55,821 bases of DNA. Origin: a virus. The stretch spans positions 1 through 55,821 of IMG/VR virus record IMGVR_UViG_3300027733_001676; one strand, written 5' to 3'. Every line of letters starts with the position of its first letter. The stretch's first letter is position 1. Position numbers and translations under genes: made by a program. Below the pieces are notes generated by a model that had not been told where the DNA came from, searched no databases, and was given only the letters and a program-made list of their open reading frames with translations. This document shows, one piece after another, positions 1 through 44,910 of the stretch.

Positions 1-1431
1 AAATTTCCTAAGAACTACGAGTTGGTAGTTGCCGTGGGTTATAAGAAGGATTCATTGATTGAATATTGTACAGTAGCACATCCCGATAGAAAGTTTACGT
101 TTGTTCATGTAGATAAATGGGAAAATCCCAATGTAGGACCTGGTTATTCAACTTTAAAGTGTAAACAACATTTACAAAAGCCATTCTATATAATTACAGC
201 CGATTGTTTAATCGATTCAGAACTTCCTTCTATTGACGGAAATTGGTTGGGTGTATATCCTACTAGTTATCCAGAAAAATATTCAACGATTAACGTAGAT
301 CCAAACGGAAACGTATTAGACTTTAAAAATAAATGTAAAAATGGTTATGACCAAGCATTTATAGGATTAGCCAGTGTTTTCGATTACGAAATTTTCTGGA
401 AAGAATTGGAAACAAATACCACTGACTATGAACTAGTATCAGCTTGGTTTAATTCTAAAAAATATTCTACACTAAAATCGAAAGAACTAAAATGGTTTGA
501 TACTGGCAATTTGGATGATATTCAAAATACAAAATCGCATTTTAAAGACGTTCCATTGTCATTACATAAAAATATAGACGAAATTACGTATAAAATTAAC
601 AATAAATTCTTGAAGTTTAATGCAGATGTTCAGATTACCAATAACAGATGTAATAGAGGACTAAAATTAAGATCATTGGTACCAAATAACTTAAGATCAA
701 ATAACAACTTTCTTTCATATGATTGGACAGATGGCATTACATTATATGAATACAATTCTTATAATATCTACTCTAAGTTTCTGCCATTTTTTAAGAACAC
801 AATTGATAATTCAAAAACGTGGTTAGATTCAAATCTCATTAGTAAATTTTACGTAGATAAAACAAACGTAAGAAAAAAAATGTTTTTAAATTTGTACGGC
901 GATGACTTTCTAAATAAAAGGTTTAATATCAACGACGTTGAATATCCATCAATGTCTGAGTTACTAGATAAAGTAGATTTTCCATCGTTGTCCTCTAATT
1001 TACTATATTCTAATTTTCACGGAGACCTACAATTCGATAATATCATTTATAATACAAAAGATGATAAATTCACATATATTGATTGGAGAGAATCTTTTGC
1101 GGGAGATACTAATGGTGGTGATTTATATTATGATTTAGGAAAACTGTATGGCGGATGTTTGTTACCATACAATTTGTTGAAAAATGCACACTATGTTAAT
1201 TTCACAGCCGGTCATTCTTATATCAAATATGACTATCAAATTAACGATTCTTTAAAGGAATTTACAAGTACATACGAAAATTGGTTGACTAGTAATGGCT
1301 ATAATTTAAACAAGGTCAAATTGATTACAGGTTTAATCTATCTAAACATGTCTCCGCTACATGATTCAAAGTTTAATAAACTTTTATGGTTTAAATCAAT
1401 TGAACTATTAAATGAATGTGTCAATAAATAA
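1..1431 (+). CDS. Sugar/alcohol-phosphate nucleotidyltransferase fused to APH/choline-kinase-like domain (5' end missing)
   Basis: The frame is open from base 1, so the true start lies outside the window; the TTG at 22 is probably an internal codon. The first 170 or so residues resemble the C-terminal part of a nucleotidyltransferase (GT-A-like fold: ITADCL, then a D-F-K-N-K stretch), so the N-terminal NTP-binding loop is missing. The second half is kinase-like of the aminoglycoside-phosphotransferase/choline-kinase superfamily: a catalytic-loop-like HGDLQFDNIIY near residue 334 and a metal-binding IDWRE near 353. LicC/LicA-type pairs make CDP-activated headgroups in this way; here both steps may sit in one chain. 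It overlaps the next gene by 20 nt and heads the glycan operon. The domain calls come from motifs; the substrate is unknown. Confidence 0.7.
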   Translation, partial: KFPKNYELVVAVGYKKDSLIEYCTVAHPDRKFTFVHVDKWENPNVGPGYSTLKCKQHLQKPFYIITADCLIDSELPSIDGNWLGVYPTSYPEKYSTINVDPNGNVLDFKNKCKNGYDQAFIGLASVFDYEIFWKELETNTTDYELVSAWFNSKKYSTLKSKELKWFDTGNLDDIQNTKSHFKDVPLSLHKNIDEITYKINNKFLKFNADVQITNNRCNRGLKLRSLVPNNLRSNNNFLSYDWTDGITLYEYNSYNIYSKFLPFFKNTIDNSKTWLDSNLISKFYVDKTNVRKKMFLNLYGDDFLNKRFNINDVEYPSMSELLDKVDFPSLSSNLLYSNFHGDLQFDNIIYNTKDDKFTYIDWRESFAGDTNGGDLYYDLGKLYGGCLLPYNLLKNAHYVNFTAGHSYIKYDYQINDSLKEFTSTYENWLTSNGYNLNKVKLITGLIYLNMSPLHDSKFNKLLWFKSIELLNECVNK

Positions 1432-2065
1432 GGATACAAAAATATATTGTAGTTTTAGCAAAACAGCCGGTAATAAAGGATGTGAATTCTTTAACAAATC
1501 ATTTGCAAAATATAATATAGATGCCTTATACAAATCGTTTTCTATTAATAATATAAACGATGCTTATAAAGCGGCACTTTGTCTTAAATTTTCAGGTTGT
1601 GCAATTGCTATGCCTTTTAAAAAACAAGCATACGAACTTGTAACATATAAAGATGAAAGTGCCGAATTAAGCAAATCTGTAAATACTATTATATTCGATC
1701 ATAATACAGATACATCTATAGGGTATAATACAGATTATTATGCTACAGACATCATTCTTAAACCTTATATAAAAACCTATAAAATTATTAACATACTAGG
1801 CAACGGCGGATTATCTACCGCCGTTCAAGCTAAATGTCGTGATTTAGGATTTGAAGTAAATCTAATAACAAGAGAAAACTGGAATACAATTAAAGATTTA
1901 AAAGATTCGTTAATATTTAATTGTACGTCTGTTAATAATATAGAGGTAAAACCAAACAACGTTTTTATAGATTGTATAATAGGAACCAGCACAGGCGACG
2001 AGTTTCATAAGTATCAATCACATAAACAATTTACGTTATATACAAATCTAATATATGAAGTATAG
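1412..2065 (+). CDS. Shikimate dehydrogenase-like (AroE-fold) oxidoreductase
   Basis: The 217-aa protein carries the AroE signature in order. A Ser-x-Ser pair (S14, S16) replaces the usual HSxSP substrate loop. AMPFKK holds the catalytic-type Lys (K70). SVNTI is at 89-93, and GYNTD holds the paired Asp (D108). A glycine-rich NADP-loop-like stretch, ILGNGGLS, lies at 128-135. AroE reduces 3-dehydroshikimate; relatives act on quinate or aminoshikimate. It is shorter than the usual 270 or so residues, with the C-terminal part reduced. It lies between a nucleotidyltransferase-kinase and an aldolase-like protein, overlapping both, which suggests a role in making a sugar or cyclitol precursor rather than aromatic amino acids. 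The fold assignment is good; the substrate is inference. Confidence 0.72.
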   Translation: MNVSINKDTKIYCSFSKTAGNKGCEFFNKSFAKYNIDALYKSFSINNINDAYKAALCLKFSGCAIAMPFKKQAYELVTYKDESAELSKSVNTIIFDHNTDTSIGYNTDYYATDIILKPYIKTYKIINILGNGGLSTAVQAKCRDLGFEVNLITRENWNTIKDLKDSLIFNCTSVNNIEVKPNNVFIDCIIGTSTGDEFHKYQSHKQFTLYTNLIYEV

Positions 2066-3050
2066 GTATGGAATAGGAGTGATGTCCAAAAATATTGTAG
2101 ACGAGTGTATAAATTATGCTAATAATTTTAATGTAAACATTGCTTTCATACCATCACGTAGACAAGTAGACAACGATGGTGGTTATGTAAACAACTGGAC
2201 AACCGAAACATTTTCTTATTATGTTAAATCAAAAACGAGTAATATAATACTTAAAAGAGATCACGGCGGTCCACATCAAGGAAAGTACGTAGATGATGGT
2301 ACCATTTCATTATATAATGATTGTATATACTTTGATTCTATACACATAGATCCTTGGAAAATTGCAAATAACTTTTATGAAGGGTGTGTATTAACCAAAG
2401 ATCTTATTAAATTTTGTCACAACAAAAACAAAAATATTTGGTTTGAAATAGGCACAGAACAATCAATATTTCACTATGAATCAGATCAACTACACGATCT
2501 TATCAGTTATTTAAAAAACAATTTGTCAAGTGGTGAGTATGAACAAATCAAGTATGGTGTAATACAGAGTGGTACGTCTTTAAAAGAAAATAAAAACACG
2601 GGGTCGTATAATAATCAAAGATTGGTTGATATGGTCTCTATATGTAAGAAGTTTGGTTTGTTGTCTAAAGAACACAACGGAGATTATCTACCGTTACAAT
2701 TAATCGAAGAAAAGTTTTACTATGGATTAGATGCTATTAATATAGCACCGGAGTTTGGTCAGATAGAAACAAAAACATATCTTGATGAAGTAAGATATAG
2801 TTCGTTGTTTGAAACTTTTTTTGATATCTGTTATTCTTCAAAGAAATGGGAAAAATGGGTTGACAAATCTTTTAATCCATTTATAAATAAAGAACGATTA
2901 ATCAATATATGTGGACACTATGTGTTATCTACAGATAGATTCGTTAACGAAATTAAAAATAAAGTGAGATACGATATAGATAATCTCATACGAGAAAACA
3001 TCAGAAATAAACTAAATGAATTATACAAAACCAAAAACGATATTTTGTGA
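2055..3050 (+). CDS. GatZ/KbaZ-like TIM-barrel protein (tagatose-bisphosphate aldolase subunit family)
   Basis: This is a 331-aa protein. SRRQVDNDGGY near residues 34-44, RDHGGP near 69-74 and INIAPEFGQ near 230 line up with motifs I know from the GatZ/KbaZ family (S-N-Q-V-N-x-x-GGY, GGDHLGP, the V-x-P-E-L-T region). That family is the non-catalytic or chaperone subunit of class II tagatose-bisphosphate aldolase and is itself a barrel related to sugar-phosphate enzymes. It overlaps the AroE-like gene by 11 nt and the HAD gene by 35 nt. I infer a role in sugar-phosphate interconversion for the cassette. The match rests on short motifs, so another TIM-barrel sugar enzyme is possible. Confidence 0.5.
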   Translation: MKYRYGIGVMSKNIVDECINYANNFNVNIAFIPSRRQVDNDGGYVNNWTTETFSYYVKSKTSNIILKRDHGGPHQGKYVDDGTISLYNDCIYFDSIHIDPWKIANNFYEGCVLTKDLIKFCHNKNKNIWFEIGTEQSIFHYESDQLHDLISYLKNNLSSGEYEQIKYGVIQSGTSLKENKNTGSYNNQRLVDMVSICKKFGLLSKEHNGDYLPLQLIEEKFYYGLDAINIAPEFGQIETKTYLDEVRYSSLFETFFDICYSSKKWEKWVDKSFNPFINKERLINICGHYVLSTDRFVNEIKNKVRYDIDNLIRENIRNKLNELYKTKNDIL

Positions 3051-3381
3051 TATAGATGGTACATTAGTTAAACACTATCCTCCTGATATAAATTCCGTGC
3101 CTGACTTTGAGTTAACTTTGTTGTCTGGTACATTGGAAACGCTCAGAGAATGGGATCGTAAAGGATATAATATAATACTTGTTACAGGTAGAAGAGAGAG
3201 TATGAGACAATCAACAGAAAAACAATTAAAAAAAATAGGTATATTTTACGACCAACTAATTATGGGTATAGGCGGCGGACAACGTGTTATAATAAATGAT
3301 TTTAAACCGAACAGTGACGAACCTACGGCAGCACACTTTTGTTTAAAAAGAAACGATGGTATATCAAGTTTAAATTTATAA
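3016..3381 (+). CDS. Small HAD-superfamily phosphatase
   Basis: The 121-aa single-domain HAD protein has motif I FCDIDGT with nucleophile D12 and acid/base D14. Motif II is VTGR near residue 57, and a late acidic motif IIND sits near 92. There is no cap domain, as in KDO-8-phosphate phosphatase or capsule-type phosphatases. The only suitable ATG lies 35 nt inside the preceding gene, so the two are translationally coupled. Its likely job is to remove phosphate from the precursor made by the three genes upstream. A 64-nt gap with a late-type promoter follows, so this gene ends the first sub-operon. Confidence 0.75.
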   Translation: MNYTKPKTIFCDIDGTLVKHYPPDINSVPDFELTLLSGTLETLREWDRKGYNIILVTGRRESMRQSTEKQLKKIGIFYDQLIMGIGGGQRVIINDFKPNSDEPTAAHFCLKRNDGISSLNL

Positions 3382-3445: not shown

Positions 3446-4117
3446 ATGACAAATAAAGAATTAAGAGCCAAATACGGAGACTTTACAAAACACAATTACT
3501 ACACTTACCCAGATCATTTCTTTAGCCCAAAGGATGATTTTACCCTAAACATTCCTGTTTGGAGTAGTTACTTCACCAGATTTCTTGATCAAGAGAATCT
3601 ACTTTTCCTAGAAATTGGTACTGGTCATGGTAGATCTTCAGTGTGGATGTTGGAAAATGTTTTAACTCAACCAAACTCAAGAATCATTACTGTTGATATA
3701 GAAGATGTACGTAAGTACAAAAAAGGAGACTTATCATTTGACTTTGGCGATTCTTTATCGTTAACATTAACTCAGAATCTTCAACCTTATATTGATAAAA
3801 ATAAGTGTGAGTTTTATGTCACTGACTCCAAAGAGTTTTTACGTAAATTGTATGGTGGCACCTTGGGATCTAAGTTTCTTGGTAGCGATCCTAAGAACGT
3901 ATTTGACTTCATCTACCTTGATGGATGTCACGAACCAGATTATGTTATGCATGAAGCCGCAATTAGTTTTGAATTGTTAAAGAAAGGCGGATTTATTCTA
4001 TTCGATGATTATGGTTGGGGTAAATGCAGATATGGTATCGAAGCATTCTTGGAATGTTATAAGGGTAAGTACAATTTATTAATCAAGGAATGGCAAGTAT
4101 TGATTGAAAAAATATGA
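3446..4117 (+). CDS. Class I SAM-dependent methyltransferase (Methyltransf_24-like)
   Basis: This is a 223-aa Rossmann methyltransferase. Motif I FLEIGTGHGRSS lies near residues 52-63. An acidic residue ends strand 2 (TVDIED). A strand-4 motif FDFIYLDGCHEPDYV is followed by a GGFILFDDYGWG segment. The HEPDYV and FDDYGW signatures are typical of cephalosporin-hydroxylase/Methyltransf_24-type enzymes found in polysaccharide clusters. It is the first gene after the internal promoter, and its stop overlaps the next start (ATGA). It probably O-methylates a sugar of the glycan; the target cannot be read from sequence. Confidence 0.75.
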   Translation: MTNKELRAKYGDFTKHNYYTYPDHFFSPKDDFTLNIPVWSSYFTRFLDQENLLFLEIGTGHGRSSVWMLENVLTQPNSRIITVDIEDVRKYKKGDLSFDFGDSLSLTLTQNLQPYIDKNKCEFYVTDSKEFLRKLYGGTLGSKFLGSDPKNVFDFIYLDGCHEPDYVMHEAAISFELLKKGGFILFDDYGWGKCRYGIEAFLECYKGKYNLLIKEWQVLIEKI

Positions 4118-4944
4118 TAAATATTAATAGTTTTGACGAGTTTAAAACTCTGATGAATAATCATAAAAGTTTTACTGTAAGAAGAGGTCGTGACGGATTT
4201 GGATCCCAAATGTATGCAACTATTATAGGTTTTTGTATATCAAAACAAATTAATAAACCATATTACTATTCAAGTTTATCGCCGATATCATTGATGAATG
4301 TGTCATTGTGGGGAAACTCTACAGAGAAAGCAAATAATGTATTAAGTAAAATAATGAAAAATCTCAACATCGATCACGTTGAGAATAATTCGGGTGGATG
4401 TTTAAGTATACAACTTCCATATGGTTGTACAAACGAACAAACATTCTCAGATAAAACTTTATCAGATTTACATAATAGCTGGCCATTACCAAAACCATCC
4501 TATTTTGAAAGTGATCATGTTATAAGCATTCATATTCGTAGAGGATTAGATATCATTAAAAAAGATAAACATCGATTTTCAAGATGGGTTGAAGACCCAA
4601 ACTTTTATAAAGATATGGTTTATAAATTATCAACAAAATATCCAAAATCTAAAATCCATATTTTCTGTTGGGGAGAATGTGGTTTAGAGGATATAAAAAA
4701 TGATAATTTAACAATTCATAATTCGGGTGGAAATAACTTCATAGAAGACTTTAATGCATTTGTACACTCGGATATGTTAATTGTAGCCGGAAGCACATTT
4801 AGTGTAAGTGCCGCGTTCTTTAATAAAAACACAATATTGTGTTCCAGTAAAATTTTGAAATTTAGTTCTCTCGTAGAAGAGAAATGTTATTCATCACCAT
4901 TTCCAGAAATTTGGGAACAAAATTATAATTCAACGCTTACGTAA
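4114..4944 (+). CDS. Fucosyltransferase-like GT-B glycosyltransferase
   Basis: The 276-aa protein has the two hallmark regions of the fucosyltransferase superfamily. An N-terminal RGRDGFGSQMYA (residues 24-35) corresponds to GGxGNQxF. The GDP-sugar-binding motif is HIRRG (140-144). STFSVSAAFF near 230 matches the family's late Ser-rich motif. Such enzymes add fucose or related deoxysugars from GDP-sugar donors. It is translationally coupled to both neighbours (ATGA upstream, TAATG downstream). A second, divergent member lies at 12778. Donor and acceptor are unknown. Confidence 0.62.
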   Translation: MININSFDEFKTLMNNHKSFTVRRGRDGFGSQMYATIIGFCISKQINKPYYYSSLSPISLMNVSLWGNSTEKANNVLSKIMKNLNIDHVENNSGGCLSIQLPYGCTNEQTFSDKTLSDLHNSWPLPKPSYFESDHVISIHIRRGLDIIKKDKHRFSRWVEDPNFYKDMVYKLSTKYPKSKIHIFCWGECGLEDIKNDNLTIHNSGGNNFIEDFNAFVHSDMLIVAGSTFSVSAAFFNKNTILCSSKILKFSSLVEEKCYSSPFPEIWEQNYNSTLT

Positions 4945-5942
4945 TGAAAATCCAAATATTAGAACTAGAAAAACATCGTAACGAAACAACATTTAGACCT
5001 TATCTAAGTGCAATACAAACGTTTAATGAGTATGGTATTGAATTCGTAAATGAAAACCCAGACATGTATTGGGTTGGTCAAGCATCTGTTGTAAATAAAA
5101 AAGTATCTCTTCAAGAATCAATTGATAACGGATGTAAGTTTTTAGAAAATTTGGATGCTCCTTATGTGTTATTTGATGGTCAAGATTCATCATCGTTGAT
5201 GGGTGTGTGGGACGTATTTAGTAAAATACCAGGCTTTAAATTAGCAAAGAATGTTGTACTAAAAAATTATTCATCTTATACCAAAAAATTTCCAAATGGC
5301 AGATGGTTTTGGGGTGAGAGTGAAACTGGATATAGTGTATCATCGGCTGACCTAGAATTATTAAATAAACGATTGGTACATAGTGGCACAAATTGGTTAA
5401 ATACATTTGGTAACAAGATGGAGTTTGCCAAGATCAATAAAAACAAAAAACATGACGTTGCGGTACTTATTGGTCTATGTCCCGAGAACTATGAATATGG
5501 TAATCGGGTGGATGAATATTACAATGGTCCTCGTAGAAAACTATTTGAAGAAGTCAAGAAACTTGATTGTAATGTAATAACCACTGAAGCTACTGGCAAA
5601 TTAGATAAACAAAAATACATGCAAACTCTATATGATAGCAAACTTTGTATATCACCATTTGGTTATGGAGAAGTAAATATCAGAGAAGTTGAATGTATTG
5701 TCGCTGGTACTCCTACTATCAAACCCAACATTGAATGTGTAAAAAGCACTCCATTTATTTATGGTAATGGATTTACATTGGATTGTAAGTCTGATTTCTC
5801 CGATTTAAAAGATGTTGTTGAATTTGCATTGTCAAACTACGATGATAGTATCAATTTATTAAATCAGCAACGTGAAGTGTTTTATCATAAATCAACCGAT
5901 AACTACATCGTTAAACATGTAATCAAAAATATATTGTCATAA
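4944..5942 (+). CDS. Glycosyltransferase, GT-B/exostosin-like
   Basis: The 332-aa protein's C-terminal half carries KLCISPFGYGEVNIREVE followed by AGTPTIKP (about 232-260), a donor-sugar motif like the E-x7-E region of GT-B enzymes and exostosin-like transferases. A nucleotide-binding-like segment VAVLIGLCPENYEYG precedes it. It starts in a TAATG overlap with the previous stop and ends in another, so it is firmly part of the operon. There is no signal peptide or membrane segment, so it acts in the cytoplasm. Specific sugar chemistry cannot be assigned. Confidence 0.6.
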   Translation: MKIQILELEKHRNETTFRPYLSAIQTFNEYGIEFVNENPDMYWVGQASVVNKKVSLQESIDNGCKFLENLDAPYVLFDGQDSSSLMGVWDVFSKIPGFKLAKNVVLKNYSSYTKKFPNGRWFWGESETGYSVSSADLELLNKRLVHSGTNWLNTFGNKMEFAKINKNKKHDVAVLIGLCPENYEYGNRVDEYYNGPRRKLFEEVKKLDCNVITTEATGKLDKQKYMQTLYDSKLCISPFGYGEVNIREVECIVAGTPTIKPNIECVKSTPFIYGNGFTLDCKSDFSDLKDVVEFALSNYDDSINLLNQQREVFYHKSTDNYIVKHVIKNILS

Positions 5943-6955
5943 TGAAACTATCAAAAAAATATGTCATAGGTACTCACGTCATGTTCTATGAAATAGAAAT
6001 GTACAAGGAGTTTGTTGATGGATTAATTAATCTAATTGACCCAATACAAAACAAAGAAAATATTCATCTACACTTTTGTTTCAACACTTCTCAATATTTT
6101 GAAAAGATTGATACCTCAAAGATTGATGTACATCAACTATCCGATAAGTTTTATGATGGTATACAAAAACTCAAAAATATAGGTATTAATGAGAAAAATT
6201 TAGTAATTGAGTTAAAAACAGATCACGATGAGATTTACAATGTGGCTGATTATAGAAGAGATCTTAATTACAATTATTGTAAAAAGGTTGATTATATTAT
6301 GTGGGGTGAGACTGATAGTTTCTTTCCAAAGGAAGCATTCAATGTAATTGAAAGCATTGCACATTATGGATCATCTGCCAATATACACAAGTATATTATT
6401 AGCTTTGCTGATCGTAAAATGTGGGATGATTCTTGGAAAGTAACAGAACATGTTGACTACGAAAATGTTAAGTTTATTGATACACCAGATCAAGTAAATA
6501 ATAAAAATTATGCCAAGTCTCAATTGAGTATAGAAGAAATGAACACGGTAAATGCAAAAACAACTGAATTTGACATTCGTACATTATCTCAACCCAAGAT
6601 AGATGGTAGTTGTTTGGTATTGTCATCTGACCTAATCAAATCAGGTGTTAATCTTCCACATAGTTTGTTGTTGTATGGTGATGATTCTAGTATTGGTGTT
6701 ATTGCCAAACAAATCATGGGTGATAAGTTTATTCAGTTTGTAATAAAGAATATTCTAAAGGTTCATGCCAGAAGACATCCCAACAAACGTTTATATATTC
6801 TAAATGAAGATAACCCTAGAGGTTTTTGTGGCGATAAAAAGGGTGTGTGGTCAAATGTATTAGATCAACACTCCAAATTTAATCTACACAATATTCTTAA
6901 ATCCCAAAATAAGTTCTTTACCTTTAAAGACGTTTTTGATAAAATAAACCTATGA
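5942..6955 (+). CDS. Putative glycosyltransferase (GT-A-like), cassette member
   Basis: I do not recognise this 337-aa protein with confidence. Its N-terminus (YVIGTHVMFYEIEMYKEFV) and a mid-protein YIMWGETDSFFP near residue 117 resemble a GT-A enzyme, with E-T-D in place of the DxD metal motif. A later HARRHPNKR segment near 275 is basic. It sits between a GT-B transferase and a methyltransferase, with a TAATG start and a 4-nt overlap at its end. Context makes a sugar-transfer role the best guess; a non-catalytic GT-like protein is possible. Confidence 0.45.
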   Translation: MKLSKKYVIGTHVMFYEIEMYKEFVDGLINLIDPIQNKENIHLHFCFNTSQYFEKIDTSKIDVHQLSDKFYDGIQKLKNIGINEKNLVIELKTDHDEIYNVADYRRDLNYNYCKKVDYIMWGETDSFFPKEAFNVIESIAHYGSSANIHKYIISFADRKMWDDSWKVTEHVDYENVKFIDTPDQVNNKNYAKSQLSIEEMNTVNAKTTEFDIRTLSQPKIDGSCLVLSSDLIKSGVNLPHSLLLYGDDSSIGVIAKQIMGDKFIQFVIKNILKVHARRHPNKRLYILNEDNPRGFCGDKKGVWSNVLDQHSKFNLHNILKSQNKFFTFKDVFDKINL

Positions 6956-7518
6956 CTATAGACGAAATACTATCTTTGGTACCAGACAAATTTGAACACA
7001 AAACCACCACTTCAAAAAAGTTTAAGCGTGATGTTTTTACATTCTTTGATAAACCCGAGTTCAAAAACAAAACTGCTTTGGAAATTGGATCCAATTTGGG
7101 TTATACCACCTTTATTCTAAGTTACCTATTCAACCAAGTATATGGCATCAATGAAAAAGAATTTGACAAGGCCGATGAGTTTTGTAAACAAAATGGTAGA
7201 ACCAACGTCAAGTTCTTTGGTCAAGATGTATACAAATACGGGCTTCCTGTTGATACTGCCGATGTAATTATGGTGGATGCTCTCCACACCTACGATGCGG
7301 TCCAAATAGACGTATATAACGCCTTAAAGTTAAAATCGGACGGTAAGAAGTACTTCATCTTTGACGATGTGGGCGCTTATCCAGAAATTATCAACTCACT
7401 CAATGATCTTTTTGAAAAAAATGTTATTAAGCCAATCGTAAAGATCGGTCATAGTGATGAAGAAAAGTTCACCAGGCCATTACATGATTGGGAAGGAGTA
7501 ATTTGCATCGAAGTATGA
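6952..7518 (+). CDS. Class I SAM-dependent methyltransferase
   Basis: The 188-aa compact methyltransferase has motif I TALEIGSNLGYTT near residues 42-54. The strand-4 motif ADVIMVDALHTYDAV is followed by KKYFIFDDVGAYPE, the same FDD arrangement as the enzyme at 3446. It begins in a 4-nt overlap with the preceding gene and ends in an ATGA overlap with the next. It probably decorates the same glycan. Confidence 0.7.
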   Translation: MTIDEILSLVPDKFEHKTTTSKKFKRDVFTFFDKPEFKNKTALEIGSNLGYTTFILSYLFNQVYGINEKEFDKADEFCKQNGRTNVKFFGQDVYKYGLPVDTADVIMVDALHTYDAVQIDVYNALKLKSDGKKYFIFDDVGAYPEIINSLNDLFEKNVIKPIVKIGHSDEEKFTRPLHDWEGVICIEV

Positions 7519-8465
7519 ACATTTGTTTTATCAGTCAAAATGGTCATAGTGGTAAGTTACCAAGAAACTTTGTAAACTGTCGTACAGAGTTTGCGTGGCA
7601 AATTGCTTTGAATGCCGATCACTATAACTTTCAAGAATGGTTTTTATCTAACAAAAATAAAAGTTATGATTTAATTATAGTTTTGTTACCCAAGAAACTT
7701 GAAATTGTTGACACAAATATGTTATTAGAAAGTGTCAAATCTTCTGGTAAGAAGGTAACTGTTATGCAAGAAGGACCAGCTTGGTACTATCAAGATTATA
7801 ATTATGTCAACCAAGTTAATTATATTAACTTTGTGAGTGAGATGGATTTTCTACTAACTCACAATACTAGTGATATTTCATACTTCAAAGGTGTATTTAA
7901 TAAACCTTCATTCAATCTACAATCTCTTATGATTGAAGATACTATCAAAGATGTACCCCGTGAAAACAACAAGATGCCTATTATCGGTGGTAACTTTTGT
8001 AGTTGGTATGGTGGTATAGATAGTTACTTTGTAGCGCAAGTATTCAACAAACCCATCTTTATACCAAGTATGGGTCGTAAAATAGAAAACGAAGATCAAT
8101 TTCCTAGTTTACATCATTTACCATACATGATGTGGAATGAATGGATTAAAGCACTCGCTAATTTTAATGTGGGTATACATTTGATGCGTACTCACGCAGC
8201 TGGTACTTTTGCTCTCAATTGTGCATATCTAGGTATACCATGTATCGGATATAAAGGATTAGATACACAACAAATATTACACCCAGAGTTATCTGTGGAT
8301 ATTGGTGACATTGAACAATCAAAAAAGCTAGCAAATAAACTTAAAAACGACATTTCTTTTTATAATTCGTGTTCACAACAATCTAGAGAATTATATCAAA
8401 TATATTATACAGAACAAAAATGGTTAGATAATTGGAAAACAATATATGAGCAAATCAAAAACTAA
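7515..8465 (+). CDS. GT-B-fold glycosyltransferase
   Basis: I chose the ATG at 7515, which forms an ATGA with the previous stop; an upstream TTG at 7488 would only add residues that overlap the methyltransferase. The 316-aa protein begins MNICFISQNGHSGKLPRNF, as many GT-B proteins do. Near its C-terminus, HLMRTHAAGTFALNCAYLG and IPCIGYKG resemble the donor-binding loop of group-1 transferases. Its 3' end overlaps the UDP-glucose dehydrogenase gene by 20 nt. Family and donor are not resolved. Confidence 0.55.
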   Translation: MNICFISQNGHSGKLPRNFVNCRTEFAWQIALNADHYNFQEWFLSNKNKSYDLIIVLLPKKLEIVDTNMLLESVKSSGKKVTVMQEGPAWYYQDYNYVNQVNYINFVSEMDFLLTHNTSDISYFKGVFNKPSFNLQSLMIEDTIKDVPRENNKMPIIGGNFCSWYGGIDSYFVAQVFNKPIFIPSMGRKIENEDQFPSLHHLPYMMWNEWIKALANFNVGIHLMRTHAAGTFALNCAYLGIPCIGYKGLDTQQILHPELSVDIGDIEQSKKLANKLKNDISFYNSCSQQSRELYQIYYTEQKWLDNWKTIYEQIKN

Positions 8466-9252
8466 AATTGGTATCGTTGGTTATGGATATGTAGGAAAAG
8501 CATTTCATACATTTTTCAAAGATCATTATGAGGTTGTAATTCGTGATCCACTTTATCCAAACTCTGTATCCAAGGAAGAAATTAATCAATGTGAATTGGG
8601 TGTGGTTTGTGTACCAACCCCATCAAATACTGATGGTAGTTGTGATACGAGTATTGTTGAAGAATCTGTATCATGGATGACCAATCCTATCATTCTCATC
8701 AAGTCAACTATTGAAATTGGTACAACTCGTAGGTTGATTGAAAAGTATAATAAGAAGATTGTATTTAGTCCAGAGTTTGCTGGTGAGTCCAAATACTGGA
8801 CTCCACAGGGTTTTACAACTGATGTTAAACAAACCCCATTCTTTATTTTTGGTTCAGATGATAAATCAGTTGGACATAGATTGGTTGACATTTATATGCC
8901 AATCACTGGACCAAGCAAAACATATCGTGTCACAGATAGTATTAGTGCAGAAATCACCAAGTATGTAGAAAACACTTACTTCGCAATGAAGGTTGCGTTT
9001 GTAAATGAACTATATGATTTGTGTGAGAAGAGTGGTACTCATTGGAGTGAAGTACGTGATCTATGGTTGTTAGATCCAAGAACCAACAAGTCTCACACAG
9101 CTGTATTTGCTAATGAACGTGGTTTTGGTGGCAAGTGTTTACCAAAAGATACAAAGGCTATGGTTGGATATGGTGACAAACTTGGTGTGGATCTATCAAT
9201 CTTGAAGACCGTATTAAAGAGTAACGAACAAATGGTAAAACAAAATGGCTAA
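8446..9252 (+). CDS. UDP-glucose/GDP-mannose 6-dehydrogenase, short form
   Basis: This enzyme oxidises the C6 alcohol of a nucleotide sugar to a carboxylate (for example UDP-glucose to UDP-glucuronate) with NAD. The 268-aa chain has the dinucleotide loop GYGYVG (12-17), VCVPTPSN, KSTIEIGTT and SPEFAGES. The catalytic loop is GFGGKCLPKD with the nucleophilic Cys at C231. It stops about 37 residues after that Cys, so the C-terminal UDP-binding domain of normal 390-450-aa family members is absent. Short forms occur in phages; how they bind the nucleotide is unclear. Its product would be the natural substrate for the amidotransferase at 11456. Confidence 0.85.
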   Translation: MSKSKTKIGIVGYGYVGKAFHTFFKDHYEVVIRDPLYPNSVSKEEINQCELGVVCVPTPSNTDGSCDTSIVEESVSWMTNPIILIKSTIEIGTTRRLIEKYNKKIVFSPEFAGESKYWTPQGFTTDVKQTPFFIFGSDDKSVGHRLVDIYMPITGPSKTYRVTDSISAEITKYVENTYFAMKVAFVNELYDLCEKSGTHWSEVRDLWLLDPRTNKSHTAVFANERGFGGKCLPKDTKAMVGYGDKLGVDLSILKTVLKSNEQMVKQNG

Positions 9253-10006
9253 GAATTGCATATTAATGGTCGCTATTGAGGATGAATTATCCAAACATTC
9301 TCATAAAACCTATTTTGAACACACCATCAATAGTTGGCAATATTATTGTAACAAGCATAATATTGACTTCTACGTAGTTAGGATCAAGAGACCAGACGTT
9401 AAGTATAGTGTTTGGCACAAAGAATTTGTATTTGATTATGTAGGAGATGATTATGAAAAAATCGGTGTTGTTGACTTTGATACAATGATCAAATGGGATG
9501 CTCCTAACATCTTTGATTTATACGACGATGAGTTTTGTGGTGTGTTAGACAATGTTTCGATTCAGTGGATTGATAAAAGTCTAAAGGCTTTTAGATCTTC
9601 ATTTGAAGAGTTGTCTGATGTTCCTATGACACTATCTCAATATATTAACGGCGGAGTATTATTTTTTCATAAATCACACAAACCATTTTTTGAAAAACTC
9701 AAGAACTTTTATTTAACCAACAAAGACAAAATGGATAACTGGAGTATTCCAGGTGTTGGTAAGGAACAATCTATCTTGAACTTGTTCTTGGTCAAAGAAG
9801 ACATCAAAAGAAAAACACTTCCATATTGTTGGAATACGGTTGGTATGGTAAAGAAGGGAATGTTATGGCACAATGATAAATTGGATGATAAAACTACCTT
9901 TTTGTTTAAGTATGGGTATATTTGGCACTTCACAGGCATTCCTATTCAAGATAGAAACAATATAATCAATGATGTTTGGAAAAATATAAATCAATTCTAC
10001 AAATGA
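9245..10006 (+). CDS. GT-A/GT8-like glycosyltransferase, copy 1
   Basis: The 253-aa GT-A-like enzyme has KIGVVDFDT with a DxD metal motif at D77/D79. YINGGVLFFHKSH, a GKEQSILN segment and a final YIWHFTGIP are features of GT8/glycogenin-like proteins. It is clearly paralogous to the next gene: both share D-x-D-T, NxFxL, YINGG, G-x-x-Q-x-x-x-N and HFxGIP in the same order. It overlaps the dehydrogenase by 8 nt. Confidence 0.7.
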   Translation: MAKNCILMVAIEDELSKHSHKTYFEHTINSWQYYCNKHNIDFYVVRIKRPDVKYSVWHKEFVFDYVGDDYEKIGVVDFDTMIKWDAPNIFDLYDDEFCGVLDNVSIQWIDKSLKAFRSSFEELSDVPMTLSQYINGGVLFFHKSHKPFFEKLKNFYLTNKDKMDNWSIPGVGKEQSILNLFLVKEDIKRKTLPYCWNTVGMVKKGMLWHNDKLDDKTTFLFKYGYIWHFTGIPIQDRNNIINDVWKNINQFYK

Positions 10007-10776
10007 AAAATATCATTTTAATACCAGCCGTTGTTTCTGCTAACAACGAAAAGAAACTTCGTAATACTCCACTGATTAACAAGATTTATGAATATAGCAT
10101 AAATAGTTGGAAGCATTTTGCTAAAAAATATGATTGTCAAGTGGTTGTATTGGATGAACCATTGATGGATACCAATGTTACTAGTTTGGCATGGCAACGT
10201 TATTATGCGTTGGACTTGTTGGAACAAAGCAATATTAAGTATAATCAAGTATTGATAGTTGATGCTGATACTATTGTACATCCAAATTGTCCTAATTTCT
10301 TTGAATTAACCAACAACAAATATACAGGTGTACACGATGGTGTTGTATATGAATGGGTCATTCGTAGTACCGAGTGTTATAGCAAATTACTATTTAACGA
10401 TTATAAATTAGATGTGTGGAAATATATCAATGGTGGATTTCAAATATTCAATGAATCTCACAAAGGTCATTTAAACTATCTAAAAGAGTTTTATCTTGAA
10501 AATCGTGAACATATTTATCAATTAGAATCTACTATCAAGCTTGGTACAGATCAAACCCCTATGAATTTCTTACTTCAAATGAACAACGTTGACGTAAATA
10601 TTCTACCATATGAATATAATATGATGGGTTTGTTCTTGACGGATGGTTTAACTGATGATTTAATTTTTACAGATTATGGATGGGTTTACCATTTTAATGG
10701 TATTCCTGATACTAGTTATGGTACAAAGGTTGAGTACTATATGAACAAAACCTATAATAAGTTATATAAACCATGA
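10003..10776 (+). CDS. GT-A/GT8-like glycosyltransferase, copy 2 (tandem paralogue)
   Basis: The ATG at 10003 gives an ATGA overlap with the previous gene; an earlier ATG at 9976 would start deep inside it. The 257-aa protein has VLIVDADT (D87/D89), YINGGFQIFNESH, GTDQTPMNF and VYHFNGIP, matching copy 1 motif by motif. The pair looks like a tandem duplication followed by divergence, perhaps to add two successive sugars. Confidence 0.7.
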   Translation: MKNIILIPAVVSANNEKKLRNTPLINKIYEYSINSWKHFAKKYDCQVVVLDEPLMDTNVTSLAWQRYYALDLLEQSNIKYNQVLIVDADTIVHPNCPNFFELTNNKYTGVHDGVVYEWVIRSTECYSKLLFNDYKLDVWKYINGGFQIFNESHKGHLNYLKEFYLENREHIYQLESTIKLGTDQTPMNFLLQMNNVDVNILPYEYNMMGLFLTDGLTDDLIFTDYGWVYHFNGIPDTSYGTKVEYYMNKTYNKLYKP

Positions 10777-11456
10777 AATATACGATTTGCACCGTTGTTA
10801 ATGACATATATTGGGATTTTTTATATTATTTTACAAAATCGGCTCTTGAAAAGTGTAACGACATGGCCGAACTAATTGTATTATATACCGGTGAAAATTT
10901 CAAAGAAGATCCGATTTTCAATAATAACCGAGTTAAAATTGTCAAATACCATGGATCTATTACTACAAAAAATATATGGGATGAGGGATGGCAAAAAAAT
11001 ATTGATCTTAAAACTCAGTTCTTACGTGACTTAGCTACTAAGAAGGACAATCCTATATTTTTAATAGACGTTGATTGTTACTTTTTACATGAGTTTATTG
11101 ATGTCATAGATATGACCAAAGATATAGCTGTTACAAAACGTATACATACGTCGCCATATATAGCATCGTTCGTTGGTTTAATTAAACCAAAGGCTTGTTT
11201 AGAATTCATTGATGTTTGGAGGCACAACATGAGTAAGATACCAACTGTACCAAGAGAATCTACGGCTTTGGTTCGTACAATTCCATCAATGAAAGATAAA
11301 GTTTTAATACAAGAAATCCCAGAAACAACAATCAATTGTATTAATTTTCAGTCAACTCCAACTGAAGCAAGAATTTTACATTTTAAATCACATAAAATTG
11401 GAGATGCTATAGAATTAGTAAAGAAAAGACTCGAAAATCTAAAATCTATTGTATAA
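10773..11456 (+). CDS. GT-A-like glycosyltransferase
   Basis: The 227-aa protein has a short GT-A layout. Its N-terminal strand is YTICTVVNDIYWDF, a DxD-like motif FLIDVDCYF lies at D99/D101, and RILHFKSHK sits near the C-terminus where GT8/GT34-type enzymes keep a metal-binding His. It overlaps both neighbours (4 nt and 1 nt). It is more distant from the two preceding paralogues but probably the same superfamily. Confidence 0.55.
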   Translation: MKYTICTVVNDIYWDFLYYFTKSALEKCNDMAELIVLYTGENFKEDPIFNNNRVKIVKYHGSITTKNIWDEGWQKNIDLKTQFLRDLATKKDNPIFLIDVDCYFLHEFIDVIDMTKDIAVTKRIHTSPYIASFVGLIKPKACLEFIDVWRHNMSKIPTVPRESTALVRTIPSMKDKVLIQEIPETTINCINFQSTPTEARILHFKSHKIGDAIELVKKRLENLKSIV

Positions 11457-12775
11457 TGTGTAGTTTTTATTTTAGTAATCAATATCTAGGTAATCTTGAA
11501 GAACTCAATAAATTCTTGAAACCAAGAGGTCCAGACTATACTAATTTGGTAGAAGTTGATGGTTATACATTGGTTCATAATCTATTGAGTTTGACGGGTG
11601 ATTTTACTATTCAACCACTAAGTAAGAACAACATACATGTGTTGTTTAATGGAGAAATTTATAACTTCAAAGACTTTGATTCAAACGCAAAGTGTGATAG
11701 TGAAGTTATCATAGATCTGTATCAGAAGTATGGCCCAGAGTTTACCAGTAAATTAGATGGTGAATATGCTATTTTGATCTTGGATTTAAATACCAAACGA
11801 ATCATTTTCTCAGCGGATACCTTTAGAACCAAACCATTATTTTATAGTATTGAAGACAAAGCTATATCTGTTTCTACATATACTACCCCTATCTTGTTAT
11901 CAAATTTTAAGAAGGCAAATAAGGTAGAAGCCAATACAACTTATATTTATGATATTAAATCTGGTCAATTAACTACCAGAACAATTACTAACTTCAATCT
12001 TGACCAATACAAAAATAATGTAGATGATTGGATCTCAAAGTTTGATAGAGCTATTGAAAAAAGAACCAAGTTTTCTGCCGATAAGAAGTTCTTTATAGGA
12101 CTTAGTAGTGGATATGATAGTGGAATTATAAGTTGTGCGTTGAATAAAACTAGTATTGACTACAAAGCATATAGCGTTGCTGCATCTGAAAATATTGATA
12201 TAATCAAACAAAGATTTAATATTATCAAGAATAAAGAGTTGATTAATCTTAAAAAGTCTGAATTTGATTATCAGTCTGCAAATTTGTTTGGTATTAAATG
12301 TGAAGATTTTACCAGTCAGGATTTGGGTATTAATATAAGATCAGATAAAGCGTGTTATGGACTTGCTCATATTTGTACATTAGCTCAACGAGATAGTAGA
12401 AAAATATACATATCTGGTCAAGGTGCCGATGAGATCATTTCCGACTATGGTATGAACGGCAATAAAATCTATGGTCATAGTACATTCGGTGGTGTGTTTC
12501 CATCTGATCTAAGATCCATCTTTCCGTGGAAAAATTTCTTCAAAGGTACTCAAGAACTTTATATATCTAAAGAAGAATATGTTGCGGGATCGTTTGGTAT
12601 AGAATCAAGATATCCATTCTTGGATTTGGACTTGGTTCAGGAGTATTTAAACTTATCCACCGATGTAAAAAATAAAAAGTATAAGCATGTAATCCACGAA
12701 TATTTATTGAGAAATAACTTCCCATTTGAACAAAACAAAAAAATTGGGTTTCAAGCAAATAAAAATTTACAATAG
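11456..12775 (+). CDS. Asparagine synthase (glutamine-hydrolysing)-like amidotransferase
   Basis: The N-terminal class II glutaminase domain begins Met-Cys, so C2 would be the nucleophile after Met removal; FNGEIYN (64-70) and DGEYA (101-105) complete its active site. The C-terminal synthetase domain has a PP-loop variant GLSSGYDSG (215-223) in place of SGGxDS, then YISGQGADEI. At 439 aa it is shorter than AsnB (550 or more). Family members in O-antigen clusters amidate uronic acids. With a UDP-sugar dehydrogenase three genes upstream, I infer uronamide formation; free asparagine synthesis is the alternative. Coupled to the upstream stop by a 1-nt overlap. Confidence 0.8.
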   Translation: MCSFYFSNQYLGNLEELNKFLKPRGPDYTNLVEVDGYTLVHNLLSLTGDFTIQPLSKNNIHVLFNGEIYNFKDFDSNAKCDSEVIIDLYQKYGPEFTSKLDGEYAILILDLNTKRIIFSADTFRTKPLFYSIEDKAISVSTYTTPILLSNFKKANKVEANTTYIYDIKSGQLTTRTITNFNLDQYKNNVDDWISKFDRAIEKRTKFSADKKFFIGLSSGYDSGIISCALNKTSIDYKAYSVAASENIDIIKQRFNIIKNKELINLKKSEFDYQSANLFGIKCEDFTSQDLGINIRSDKACYGLAHICTLAQRDSRKIYISGQGADEIISDYGMNGNKIYGHSTFGGVFPSDLRSIFPWKNFFKGTQELYISKEEYVAGSFGIESRYPFLDLDLVQEYLNLSTDVKNKKYKHVIHEYLLRNNFPFEQNKKIGFQANKNLQ

Positions 12776-12777
12776 TT

Positions 12778-13608
12778 ATGTTATTATATAATAATACAAT
12801 AATCGATATTTTAGATGGCGGTCTAGGTAACAAATTCAATGGCTTGTTTCAGGGAATCTATCTACATAAAAAATTAAATAAGAATCTAGTAATTAATAAT
12901 GTAAGAAATCATTCAAGCGATTTTAATCTAAAATTATTATTTGACTTTGATTATGAATATATCGAAAATACTATAACCGAGTTGGATAATAAACTAGATC
13001 TTGGTATTCCAATTTATTTGCATAAAAATCATTTAAACTATAAAAGACGAGTTATAGTAAATAATAATAATTATGTAGACACAACATTTGTATTTTTAAC
13101 AGATAGTCTCGGTGTGTCGGGTGATATTTTGAAAGAATGTTATAAGAGTATAAAAATAACACAATCTATACTGGATCAGGTTTCTAACTTTGTTAACCAA
13201 TATAATATTTCAAAAGAAACTCTAAGTTTACACATACGTGGATCTGATAGTCCTGGTAGAGATGAAAATATAAGAACATCGCTTGATTTTATATCAAAAA
13301 ATAAGGATAAACGATTTTTTATTTGCACCGATGAAAAAACAATCGAAGATCAGTTGAGAGGCAATCCTAATTTAATATTTTACAACAAAACTAGTTATAC
13401 AGAAAAGTATGACAAATCGGCCGGTTGGAATGGTGCTATAGTTGATAATGATAATAGAAAATGGAACTATAATGCAGCACGTAACGAACAATCTATAGTA
13501 GAAGCGTTTATTGAGATGTTAATATTATCAAAAACTACATGTTGTAGTAATAATCGTAGTACATTTTTAGCTTGGTCTAAAAGATTTGGAGAAAGTGGAT
13601 TAATATGA
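12778..13608 (+). CDS. Fucosyltransferase-like/NodZ-like GT-B glycosyltransferase
   Basis: This 276-aa protein has a clear DGGLGNKFNGLFQ near residues 13-25 (the GGxGNQ motif). LSLHIRGSD with H152/R154 is the GDP-sugar site. A C-terminal SNNRSTFLAWSKRFG resembles the S-x-F-S/W-x-A motif. This is the alpha-1,2/1,6-fucosyltransferase superfamily. It lies 2 nt after the amidotransferase stop and ends with an ATGA overlap. It is divergent from the 4114 protein apart from these motifs. Confidence 0.65.
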   Translation: MLLYNNTIIDILDGGLGNKFNGLFQGIYLHKKLNKNLVINNVRNHSSDFNLKLLFDFDYEYIENTITELDNKLDLGIPIYLHKNHLNYKRRVIVNNNNYVDTTFVFLTDSLGVSGDILKECYKSIKITQSILDQVSNFVNQYNISKETLSLHIRGSDSPGRDENIRTSLDFISKNKDKRFFICTDEKTIEDQLRGNPNLIFYNKTSYTEKYDKSAGWNGAIVDNDNRKWNYNAARNEQSIVEAFIEMLILSKTTCCSNNRSTFLAWSKRFGESGLI

Positions 13609-14192
13609 ATATAGAAGAATCAAGAAAACTAGAGCGAGATAAGTATGAATCTATCTACGTAGATAAAGATCAACACTATAGAAAAAGAAATGATTCCAGA
13701 GGATATGGTCGAGGACATTTTGGAAAAAACATAATCCCACACATTTTGAGCTTAAAACCCACATCAGTTTTAGACATAGGATGTGGGTTTGGATACTTCT
13801 GTAATGATGTACAAAAGTCAGGTATTGAAAAAGTATATGGCATGGACATTGCTTCTGTAAAAACCGGCAATGTTATCAATAATCCAAACATCCAATTTAT
13901 AGATGGTGAATCACATCATATTCCTTTTGAAGATAACTCTATTGATATAATAACATCATTTGATTGTTTAGAACACTGTTTGGAAAACGATATAGATGTA
14001 ATTTTTGCAGAAATGAACCGAGTTGTTAAAAATAGATGTGTGTTTTCTATTGCATATAGACAATCAGGTGAAGATACAAAGGGGGTAATACTTCATATGA
14101 CAGTTAAACCAGAAAGTTGGTGGATTGAGAAATTAAATAAACTATTCACCGTAGAGAAATCGGGTAGTTATCTGATATGTATTAAACGATGA
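13605..14192 (+). CDS. SAM-dependent methyltransferase (Methyltransf_11-like)
   Basis: The 195-aa methyltransferase has motif I SVLDIGCGFGYF near residues 55-66, an acidic VYGMDIAS, IPFEDNSIDIITSFDCLEHC (motif 4) and a following EMNRVVKNRCVFSI strand. It differs in type from the FDD-containing methyltransferases elsewhere in the cassette. It is coupled at both ends by 4-nt overlaps. Confidence 0.78.
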   Translation: MNIEESRKLERDKYESIYVDKDQHYRKRNDSRGYGRGHFGKNIIPHILSLKPTSVLDIGCGFGYFCNDVQKSGIEKVYGMDIASVKTGNVINNPNIQFIDGESHHIPFEDNSIDIITSFDCLEHCLENDIDVIFAEMNRVVKNRCVFSIAYRQSGEDTKGVILHMTVKPESWWIEKLNKLFTVEKSGSYLICIKR

Positions 14193-15406
14193 AAATCAGT
14201 TTTATTTTACCCAGCAGAAATAATCTAAAATACTTGAAGTGGTGTTATGACGCAATTCGTTTAAATTTGAGTCACAAAGAACACGAAGTATGCGTTGCTG
14301 ATGATGCTAGTAGTGATGGAACTTGGGATTGGTGTCAAGAAATGATTAAATCAGACCCATGTTTCAAAGCTATTCGTAATGATGGTCCAGAACGAAAGGG
14401 AATGACTGAATTGTACAACACATTGGTTCAAGATGTAGCTACCAATGATGTTGTTATGATTTATCATGCCGACATGTACATTTCAAAGAACGCGGACTTG
14501 TTGATTGAAAAACATTTAAAACCACAGACCATTGTGTGTTTGACCCGTATAGAACCTCCTCTTCATCCCGGTGGACCAGAAAAGATCGTGCAAGACTTTG
14601 GTATGGAACCAGAAACCTTCAAACAAGAATCGTTTAATAAGTGGATGATTGACACAAAATTATCTCGTAAAGAAAAGATTACTGAAGGTGTGTTTGCTCC
14701 ATGGGCAATTTATAAAGAAGACTTTAATAAGATAGGTGGTCACGATTTACTATTTGCTCCGACTTCCAAAGAAGATAGTGATATATTCAACAGATTTTTA
14801 TTGAGTGGATATAAGTTTATTCAGTTGTGGGAAGCTTGTGTATATCACTTAACTTGCAGAGGAAGTAGATTCAATCCAACCATTACTTCAATTGGAAAAG
14901 ATAGTGAAGAGTGGCAAAATCAAAATGTCAAGAGTGCTAGAAACTTCATTCGTAAGTGGGGCCACTTTGTAAAACATAATGACACTATGAAGCCAATCGT
15001 TCCAAATAGATATGACGTTGGTTTTGTAGTCATGAATATTGATGAATATAAACTACTTCTATTAGAACCTTGGTGTGATACCATTTATTCTGATGCACCA
15101 TATGAACGTTATACGAATGCGGAACAAAAGAATACACGAATTGATATTTCCAAGAAACTAAAAAGTCTTGAGGATCAACGTACAAATGATGTGTTGATTG
15201 AGTTTGATGCTACAAAATTAACCAATCAATCTTTTGAGTTTTTCAACGTGATACAATTGATGTTGGAAGATAGTGGACAGATTGGTGTCATGGAATATGA
15301 CATTTTTAAAATCAAAGTTAATAAGTTAGTTGATTATAAAAATAATCTGATTCACACAAATAATGATTGGTATAAAAAGAAACTATTGATTAAAAATGGG
15401 TTATGA
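14189..15406 (+). CDS. Family 2 glycosyltransferase with C-terminal extension
   Basis: The N-terminal 250 residues are a GT2 domain: ISFILPSRNN, VADDASSDGTW (residues 36-46), a DxD-equivalent YHADMY (D95), and a later F-x-P-x-x-x-E-D-S-D catalytic-base segment near 192. The final 130 or so residues form an extra domain I do not recognise. It overlaps the methyltransferases on both sides by 4 nt. GT2 enzymes use UDP/GDP-sugars and often start or extend O-antigen-like chains. Confidence 0.78.
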   Translation: MKISFILPSRNNLKYLKWCYDAIRLNLSHKEHEVCVADDASSDGTWDWCQEMIKSDPCFKAIRNDGPERKGMTELYNTLVQDVATNDVVMIYHADMYISKNADLLIEKHLKPQTIVCLTRIEPPLHPGGPEKIVQDFGMEPETFKQESFNKWMIDTKLSRKEKITEGVFAPWAIYKEDFNKIGGHDLLFAPTSKEDSDIFNRFLLSGYKFIQLWEACVYHLTCRGSRFNPTITSIGKDSEEWQNQNVKSARNFIRKWGHFVKHNDTMKPIVPNRYDVGFVVMNIDEYKLLLLEPWCDTIYSDAPYERYTNAEQKNTRIDISKKLKSLEDQRTNDVLIEFDATKLTNQSFEFFNVIQLMLEDSGQIGVMEYDIFKIKVNKLVDYKNNLIHTNNDWYKKKLLIKNGL

Positions 15407-19328: not shown

Positions 19329-19335
19329 TGTATTC

Positions 19336-19363
19336 AATGTAACATGGATTTATAAAATGTCAA
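19336..19363 (-). promoter_or_regulatory. Possible promoter (TTGACA-16-TACATT) for uvsE
   Basis: TTGACA (19363-19358) and TACATT (19341-19336) are 16 nt apart on the - strand, just upstream of the uvsE ATG. The -10 box is weak, and a start site 7 nt downstream would fall at the ATG. Confidence 0.3.
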
Positions 19364-44902: not shown

Positions 44903-44910
44903 ATAAATAT
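44903..44910 (-). promoter_or_regulatory. ATATTTAT upstream motif
   Basis: ATATTTAT overlaps the tape measure stop codon region and ends 5 nt before the ATG at 44897 (ATATTTAT-AATAA-ATG). Possible late promoter. Confidence 0.38.

Follow-up and report, generated by a model that had tools for sequence, protein, structure and literature searches.

The window analysed here is the 55,821-nucleotide stretch covering positions 1 to 55,821 of the viral record IMGVR_UViG_3300027733_001676. It opens, at positions 1–3381, with four plus-strand frames, each overlapping the next, and continues into an island of glycan-related genes:

1..1431, +, gene 1: 3′ part of a cupin–NTP transferase–APH kinase, open at its 5′ end, 476 aa left
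1412..2065, +, AroE-like oxidoreductase of the HI0607/PRK12550 type, 217 aa (PRK12550 4.6e-32; 1NPY 6e-21)
2055..3050, +, GatZ/KbaZ-like TIM-barrel, putative ketose(-phosphate) C4-epimerase, 331 aa (tblastn, profile and model)
3016..3381, +, minimal (capless) HAD phosphatase, 121 aa (Acid_phosphat_B 2e-8; HAD_PNKP 9e-7; Pnkp1 1.3e-7)
3446..16427, +, glycosyltransferase/methyltransferase/amidotransferase island (Pfam matches)

Frames, families and relatives agree with the initial annotation, which had described four overlapping genes of these enzyme types. The island matches Methyltransf_24, Glyco_transf_11, UDPG_MGDP_dh, Asn_synthase/GATase and Glycos_transf_2 in Pfam, with a weak Glyco_transf_8 match, and the four-gene module would feed into it.

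Enzyme families of the module

Gene 1 has no start codon, and its frame runs open to the contig edge, leaving an NTP transferase (NTase) remnant (~1–552) and a kinase (~553–1428). It aligns to the section of its L002 and L003 homologues that lies after a cupin and a GLGTRL motif, and its full-length relatives (~640 aa) carry an N-terminal mannose-6-phosphate-isomerase-type cupin and the NTase GxGxR motif; the cupin is absent from the window because the contig cut through the gene. The initial annotation was therefore right to call both an NTase and a kinase domain but missed the cupin, which lies beyond the contig edge. NTP_transferase and APH matches are marginal in the truncated protein and clear in full-length relatives. 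The kinase motifs HGD..N and DWR are invariant in 43 relatives, and the NTase GxGxR/NK/D and cupin QYH/E/H motifs are conserved across relatives. Read from its domain alone, the cupin may be an isomerase. The NTase-half profile matches CTP:phosphocholine cytidylyltransferase (6e-12) and CTP:inositol-1-phosphate cytidylyltransferase (7e-7), and glucose-1-phosphate thymidylyltransferase scores equally well; with thymidylyl- and cytidylyltransferases matched about equally, nucleotide specificity is not readable from these matches. No close solved relative was found for the APH-type kinase half, so its phosphorylation site is a guess.

The GatZ/KbaZ-like barrel proposed earlier is well supported. 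The window protein has no Pfam match (PF08013, the family of the F6P/T6P C4-epimerase GatZ/KbaZ), and a bacterial module GatZ from locus L106 passes that model (33.8 against a cut-off of 26.7 bits). Searches with tblastn against GatZ/KbaZ-annotated proteins give E values of 1e-33 to 3e-39, the profile matches E. coli GatZ (2FIQ) at 9e-8, and the predicted model (pLDDT 95.4) is closest to 2FIQ (Z 30.8), followed by tagatose 4-epimerase/UxaE (24–26). Residues D69, H70, E135 and H207, invariant in 56 sequences, align on D87, H88, E171 and H257 of 2FIQ; in the E. coli enzyme, H88, H257 and E171 are the zinc ligands and D87 the base of an experimentally shown C4-epimerase (PMC11907403), an activity that the earlier reading overlooked. 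Fold, zinc ligands (H/H/E) and catalytic Asp are thus those of GatZ/KbaZ, whereas the window protein is shorter, shares ~15% identity, has I32 and N229 (the latter invariant) in place of E. coli E44 and K279, and adds the invariant arginines R35 and R68. These replacements and additions mean that its substrate need not be fructose-6-P. Also unlike GatZ/KbaZ, no GatY partner was seen and the context is biosynthetic.

The small HAD protein, whose family assignment is supported by Pfam and PHROGs, has residues D12, D14, T57 and D95 that are kept in relatives. In PHROGs, the NTase–kinase and GatZ-like proteins are without assignment and the AroE match is at chance level. The HAD beside bacterial GatZ is KdsC-like (TIGR01670 2e-19) and unlike the small phage HAD, and the presence of two unlike HAD types next to GatZ favours a phosphatase step on the GatZ product.

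The AroE-like protein keeps its catalytic Lys and Asp, as first reported: K70 and D108, together with S14, N91, Q206 and G130/G132, are invariant in 43 sequences of 25–63% identity. S14, N91 and Q206 correspond to shikimate-binding positions of AroE. The protein matches Shikimate_dh_N in Pfam (4e-12), and all its NCBIfam AroE scores, that for PRK12550 included, fall under the curated equivalog cut-offs. Its predicted model (pLDDT 96.6) reaches Z 20–25 against shikimate dehydrogenases, including 5-ketofructose reductase. It shares the AroE fold, catalytic Lys/Asp and glycine-rich cofactor loop with HI0607-type (PRK12550) proteins and 5-ketofructose reductase but differs from them in lying within a sugar-activation cassette and in a cofactor domain ~50 residues shorter (217 aa against 271 in HI0607, with the gap in the NAD(P)-binding domain). 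A true shikimate-pathway AroE was rejected on the sub-cut-off scores and because no shikimate genes occur among the island proteins. The amino-shikimate parallel drawn in the initial annotation is likewise not supported: among the island proteins scanned, in a window that is itself a fragment, there was no dehydroquinate synthase, AHBA-synthase or PLP aminotransferase family to represent that pathway's set of aminoDHQ synthase, AHBA synthase and kanosamine kinase/phosphatase; the module can do without AroE, and keto-sugars are known substrates for some AroE-family enzymes, 5-ketofructose reductase being one (PMC7954740).

Recurrence and cassette exchange

The gene set is widespread in many aquatic phages and some bacteria, and the window carries part of it. 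Among 57 non-redundant viral loci seeded on GatZ, the kinase is present in all 57, the NTase in 56, the cupin in 53 and the small HAD in 44; conversely, GatZ occurs in 16 of 20 viral loci seeded on the NTase–kinase. Bacterial operons run KdsC-like HAD, GatZ, glycosyltransferase, cupin, NTase/kinase and C-methyltransferase; Polynucleobacter sp. MWH-Jannik1A5 (L112) is one bacterium that has the operon. When a single phylum was sampled without selection, GatZ lay two genes away in 4 of 6 new NTase–kinase loci. Some module relatives have no recognised HAD nearby. Because it recurs in dozens of independent loci, across viruses and bacterial operons, the set exceeds chance neighbourhood and bears out the earlier view of one module. 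Our literature search, thin on subscription journals, found no description of this gene set.

Bacterial genomes yielded no GatZ to a single-sequence query and 204 to a profile query. Standalone GatZ proteins in marine flavobacteria are 50–55% identical, but these bacteria were rejected as the host source: the three genomes searched lack the NTase–kinase, and GatZ there neighbours beta-lactamase-like, M28 peptidase or succinate-dehydrogenase-type genes. Listeria phage GatZ matches lie on unannotated contigs, and the corresponding Listeria gene adjoins a fructose-type PTS.

AroE lies outside the core of the module and distinguishes one of two activation cassettes that can replace each other. It is present in all 33 loci with a fused cupin–NTase–kinase and in 2 of 58 with a separate short cupin, and its distribution requires 4 changes on the NTase–kinase tree against 21 on the GatZ tree. 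The phage islands L018 and L014 are 75–95% identical throughout except at the activation cassette (31%), where the cupin–NTase–kinase and AroE of L018 stand in place of the cupin and NTase–kinase of L014; GatZ and HAD are retained in both. That AroE belongs to such a swappable cassette was missed by the initial annotation. The gene between NTase–kinase and GatZ in AroE-less phages is no obvious AroE substitute; in L014, L027 and L030 it looks SAM methyltransferase-like by eye.

Because AroE comes and goes with the activation cassette, and given the precedent of 5-ketofructose reductase, it probably acts on the compound being activated, as a keto-sugar reductase. A non-catalytic role, as a degenerate or accessory subunit that stabilises the fused cupin–NTase–kinase, strikes us as improbable. 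The shortened cofactor domain, the strict co-occurrence with the fused protein and the failure of a putative, homologous SDH from C. pasteurianum to act on 5-ketofructose (PMC7954740) would all fit such a subunit, but the catalytic Lys/Asp, GxGG and substrate-pocket residues are unchanged or nearly unchanged across the 43 sequences, and the bacterial loci L104, L108 and L119 have a full-length AroE beside a separate cupin and NTase–kinase.

A candidate route to a nucleotide-activated sugar

From the gene set, its conserved catalytic residues, its recurrence and the cassette exchange, we propose, with a probability of roughly 0.6, that the module is a self-contained route to a glycan precursor, either a non-standard sugar activated with a nucleotide or a reduced form of such a sugar, probably starting from a simple sugar phosphate and serving an unusual surface glycan. 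The GatZ-like barrel would first invert C4 of a ketose (phosphate) through metal-assisted retro-aldol/aldol chemistry, as E. coli GatZ converts fructose-6-P to tagatose-6-P (PMC11907403). The PMI-type cupin N-terminal to the NTase could then interconvert ketose and aldose phosphate, the HAD enzyme could take off the phosphate, and the APH-type domain could phosphorylate the sugar again, with the anomeric or a terminal OH as the likeliest site. The NTase domain would then form an NDP-activated product that the neighbouring glycosyltransferases could use. The window has the AroE variant, in which the AroE-like enzyme would oxidise or reduce the sugar with NAD(P)(H) after GatZ and before the kinase/NTase, and thereby change which compound becomes activated. 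We infer every substrate, the order of the second to fourth steps and the redox direction. The enzyme types, set within a glycosyltransferase/methyltransferase island, fit the original proposal, in which an unusual sugar or polyol is made, dephosphorylated, phosphorylated and activated.

Known systems offer partial parallels. MupP–AmgK–MurU also uses a HAD phosphatase, an APH-type kinase and an NTP transferase to take a sugar phosphate through the free sugar to an NDP-sugar (the module's order being the presumed one), but it serves salvage rather than biosynthesis, whereas the module fuses kinase and NTase, adds cupin, GatZ and AroE, and scores 28.8 bits in L002 against a MurU equivalog cut-off of 370. 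The GDP-D-glycero-D-manno-heptose pathway (GmhA–HddA–GmhB–HddC) also occurs in glycan clusters and likewise combines an isomerase, a kinase, a HAD phosphatase and an NTase, and the module NTase is weakly HddC-like; the module, however, has an APH rather than a GHMP kinase, a cupin rather than GmhA, and the extra GatZ and AroE, and neither GmhA nor HddA was found in the window's island. ManC-type mannose-1-P guanylyltransferase/PMI fusions also join a PMI-type cupin to an NTase, but there the cupin is C-terminal, the NTase is of another subfamily and the kinase domain is missing.

In the likeliest alternative, which we nonetheless consider unlikely, the GatZ-like protein forms a C–C bond, either in an aldolase-type condensation or in an intramolecular aldol reaction that closes a ring, and AroE then reduces the resulting cyclic ketone, giving a cyclitol or ulosonic-type product. 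The fold is that of the class II aldolase superfamily, the substrate-contact residues depart from E. coli GatZ, the bacterial partner phosphatase belongs to a KdsC-like family acting on ulosonic-acid phosphates, and AroE keeps its residues at the shikimate-binding positions. Against this, the zinc ligands are of GatZ (H, H, E) rather than aldolase (three His) type, catabolic relatives adjoin PTS, HAD and Fsa/transaldolase genes, a setting that suits ketose phosphates, and activation of the GatZ product does not depend on AroE, since most loci lack that gene. It is very improbable that the NTase–kinase activates choline or another small alcohol in the manner of LicC/LicA, with GatZ, AroE and HAD forming a separate neighbouring pathway: APH domains include choline kinases and the cytidylyltransferase matches would fit, but the thymidylyltransferase scores equally, the kinase half has no choline-kinase match, the NTase–kinase bears a fused PMI-type cupin, and GatZ and cupin accompany it almost always.

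More tentatively than the activated-sugar pathway itself, we suggest that phages and bacteria may share an undescribed route to an NDP-activated rare ketose-derived sugar, with the AroE form activating a redox-modified version, and that cassettes may be swapped behind a shared GatZ/HAD front end so that a single swap changes surface-glycan chemistry. If true, this would be a nucleotide-sugar route with GatZ-type C4 epimerisation as its first committed step; GatZ-like proteins would gain a biosynthetic function beyond catabolism, the orphan HI0607-like AroE branch would gain one too, and there would be concrete enzymes to assay. The cassette swap between near-identical phage islands would then be a case of phages reshaping glycan precursors, with relevance to the way they change host surfaces or coat virions.

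Gene content of the module and its surroundings

This 55.8-kb viral record, probably a fragment, opens with four genes in its first 3381 bases, each overlapping the next. Because the contig begins within gene 1, that gene lacks a start codon in the window.

1-1431 (+): gene 1, NTP transferase/APH-type kinase
1412-2065 (+): gene 2, AroE-like
2055-3050 (+): gene 3, GatZ/KbaZ-like
3016-3381 (+): gene 4, small HAD phosphatase with a Pnkp-like core
downstream of the module, to about 16.4 kb: glycosyltransferase/methyltransferase island
rest of window (-): replication genes (ribonucleotide reductase, DnaB-like helicase, exonuclease, DNA polymerase)
35195-37204, 38934-42014, 42318-44897, 44910-47342 (-): four proteins of 669-1026 aa without a Pfam or PHROGs match

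The glycan island includes an AsnB-like glutamine amidotransferase/asparagine synthase (11456-12775), and 8446-9252 encodes a 268-aa shortened UDP-glucose/GDP-mannose dehydrogenase-like protein matched over its central domain and part of the NAD-binding domain. A DruA-like protein (Druantia defence component, PF14236, 6.5e-22; 19793-20971, -) adjoins a UvdE UV-endonuclease (18420-19337, -), and a 913-aa collagen triple-helix repeat protein (PF01391, 3.7e-24; 53080-55821, -) has a frame open to the contig end.

Recurrence and exchange of the activation genes

The initial annotation had proposed looking for the same four-gene order in phages and bacterial capsule clusters; the gene set recurs in viral loci and in distant bacterial operons. 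We gathered viral relatives by three separate seeds (GatZ, AroE and NTase-kinase) and genomes by GatZ. The 57 non-redundant GatZ-seeded viral loci lean to near relatives because they derive from the closest 80 of 180 matches. All 57 have the kinase domain and 56 have the NTase; cupins occur in 53, small HADs in 44 and AroE in 15. Scoring used profiles each made from the few relatives that were collected first, and a locus of 16 kb may include a cupin or HAD that has nothing to do with the module. Loci seeded by NTase-kinase carried GatZ in 16/20, some of the remainder ending at contig edges. The bacterial operon runs KdsC-like HAD, GatZ, GT-like protein, cupin and NTase/kinase, often followed by a C-methyltransferase, in genera as distant from one another as Prochlorococcus, Nitrotoga, Polynucleobacter, Solidesulfovibrio and Geobacter, with some members varying or lacking parts. 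In an even sample of one phylum, NTase-kinase occurred in 7/299 genomes, 6 of the 7 new; GatZ lay two genes upstream in 4 of these six, and in a fifth AroE adjoined a long cupin. These results show that the association is genuine and does not depend on which seed was used.

AroE accompanied all 33 non-redundant fused enzymes (cupin, NTP transferase and APH kinase in one protein), 2/58 separate short cupins and 4/7 long cupins. On quick trees without a mixture model, the fusion took a single change on the NTase-kinase tree and AroE took four (shuffled mean 33), while the AroE label required 21 changes on the GatZ tree (shuffled 31) and 14 on the HAD tree. Between loci with and without AroE, GatZ proteins were up to 91% identical, whereas NTase-kinases of the two classes reached about 40% at most, six divergent AroE loci left out. 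The clearest example is the pair of loci L018 and L014, which share 18 neighbouring genes at 75-95% identity. Where L018 has the fused enzyme and AroE, L014 instead has a cupin, a methyltransferase-like gene and an NTase-kinase that is 31% identical. Viral contigs can be chimeric, but such swaps are visible in several independent pairs. From these co-occurrences, trees and identities we infer that GatZ and HAD are a common front end, and that AroE is part of one of two exchangeable activation cassettes.

Residues and folds of the enzymes

Full-length phage relatives of gene 1 (L002 and L003, about 640 aa) have three domains in this order: a cupin (mannose-6-phosphate isomerase C-terminal type), an NTP transferase whose G-x-G-x-R motif is intact, and an APH-type kinase. 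Kept residues comprise HGD and DWR in the kinase, GxGxR, NK and Asp in the NTase, and Q-Y-H, E and H in the cupin. Judged by eye, marine virus AG-345-E15 has an additional set of activation genes (L005:3172-5029), in which the APH-like kinase stands alone and the NTP transferase is joined to a HAD of the same small type.

The gene 3 protein itself has no Pfam match, but its alignments with proteins annotated as GatZ/KbaZ reach 1e-33 to 3e-39. Conversion of fructose-6-P to tagatose-6-P by E. coli GatZ and KbaZ has been shown by experiment, and modelling of the GatZ mechanism assigns His88, His257 and Glu171 as Zn ligands and Asp87 as base (PMC11907403). In a profile alignment to 2FIQ, these correspond to His70, His207, Glu135 and Asp69, invariant in 56 GatZ-like sequences. 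The substrate may nevertheless differ from that of E. coli GatZ, since Ile32 and Asn229 take the place of Glu44 and Lys279, and two invariant arginines, Arg35 and Arg68, have been added. The AlphaFold model (pLDDT 95.4) is closest to GatZ 2FIQ (Z 30.8), followed at Z 24-26 by tagatose 4-epimerase and by UxaE, an epimerase of fructuronate/tagaturonate, with class II aldolases ranking after these. The genes next to catabolic relatives of this branch encode a fructose-type PTS, a HAD protein and either transaldolase or fructose-6-phosphate aldolase, a setting that suggests ketose phosphates. In marine flavobacteria (L088-L099, L103, L121), a GatZ-like gene with 50-55% identity to that of the phage stands alone; NTase-kinase was not found in three of these genomes (L089, L091, L097).

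Gene 2 is nearest to HI0607 (1NPY) and the PRK12550 family, reaches none of the curated AroE cut-offs and has a cofactor domain about 50 residues shorter than that of HI0607. All 43 sequences compared keep the catalytic Lys and Asp noted earlier, Lys70 and Asp108, and likewise Ser14, Asn91, Gln206 and Gly130/132. Its model (pLDDT 96.6) matches shikimate dehydrogenases and 5-ketofructose reductase (Z 20-25). The AroE family includes 5-ketofructose reductases, which reduce a keto-sugar (PMC7954740); cyclic imino-sugars, too, are reduced by shikimate dehydrogenases (PMC9881201).

A putative sugar-activation pathway

The most parsimonious pathway would be sugar activation in five steps, with putative substrates, nucleotide and final glycan: a ketose phosphate would be epimerised at C4, isomerised by the cupin, dephosphorylated, re-phosphorylated and joined to a nucleotide by nucleotidyl transfer. 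The same logic operates in MupP-AmgK-MurU, where AmgK is an APH-type anomeric kinase. MupP is the HAD phosphatase that converts MurNAc-6-P to MurNAc (PMC5371407). Given the KdsC-like phosphatase of the bacterial operon, the product may instead be ulosonic or cyclised. Under the five-step activation pathway, AroE would work on the sugar due for activation.
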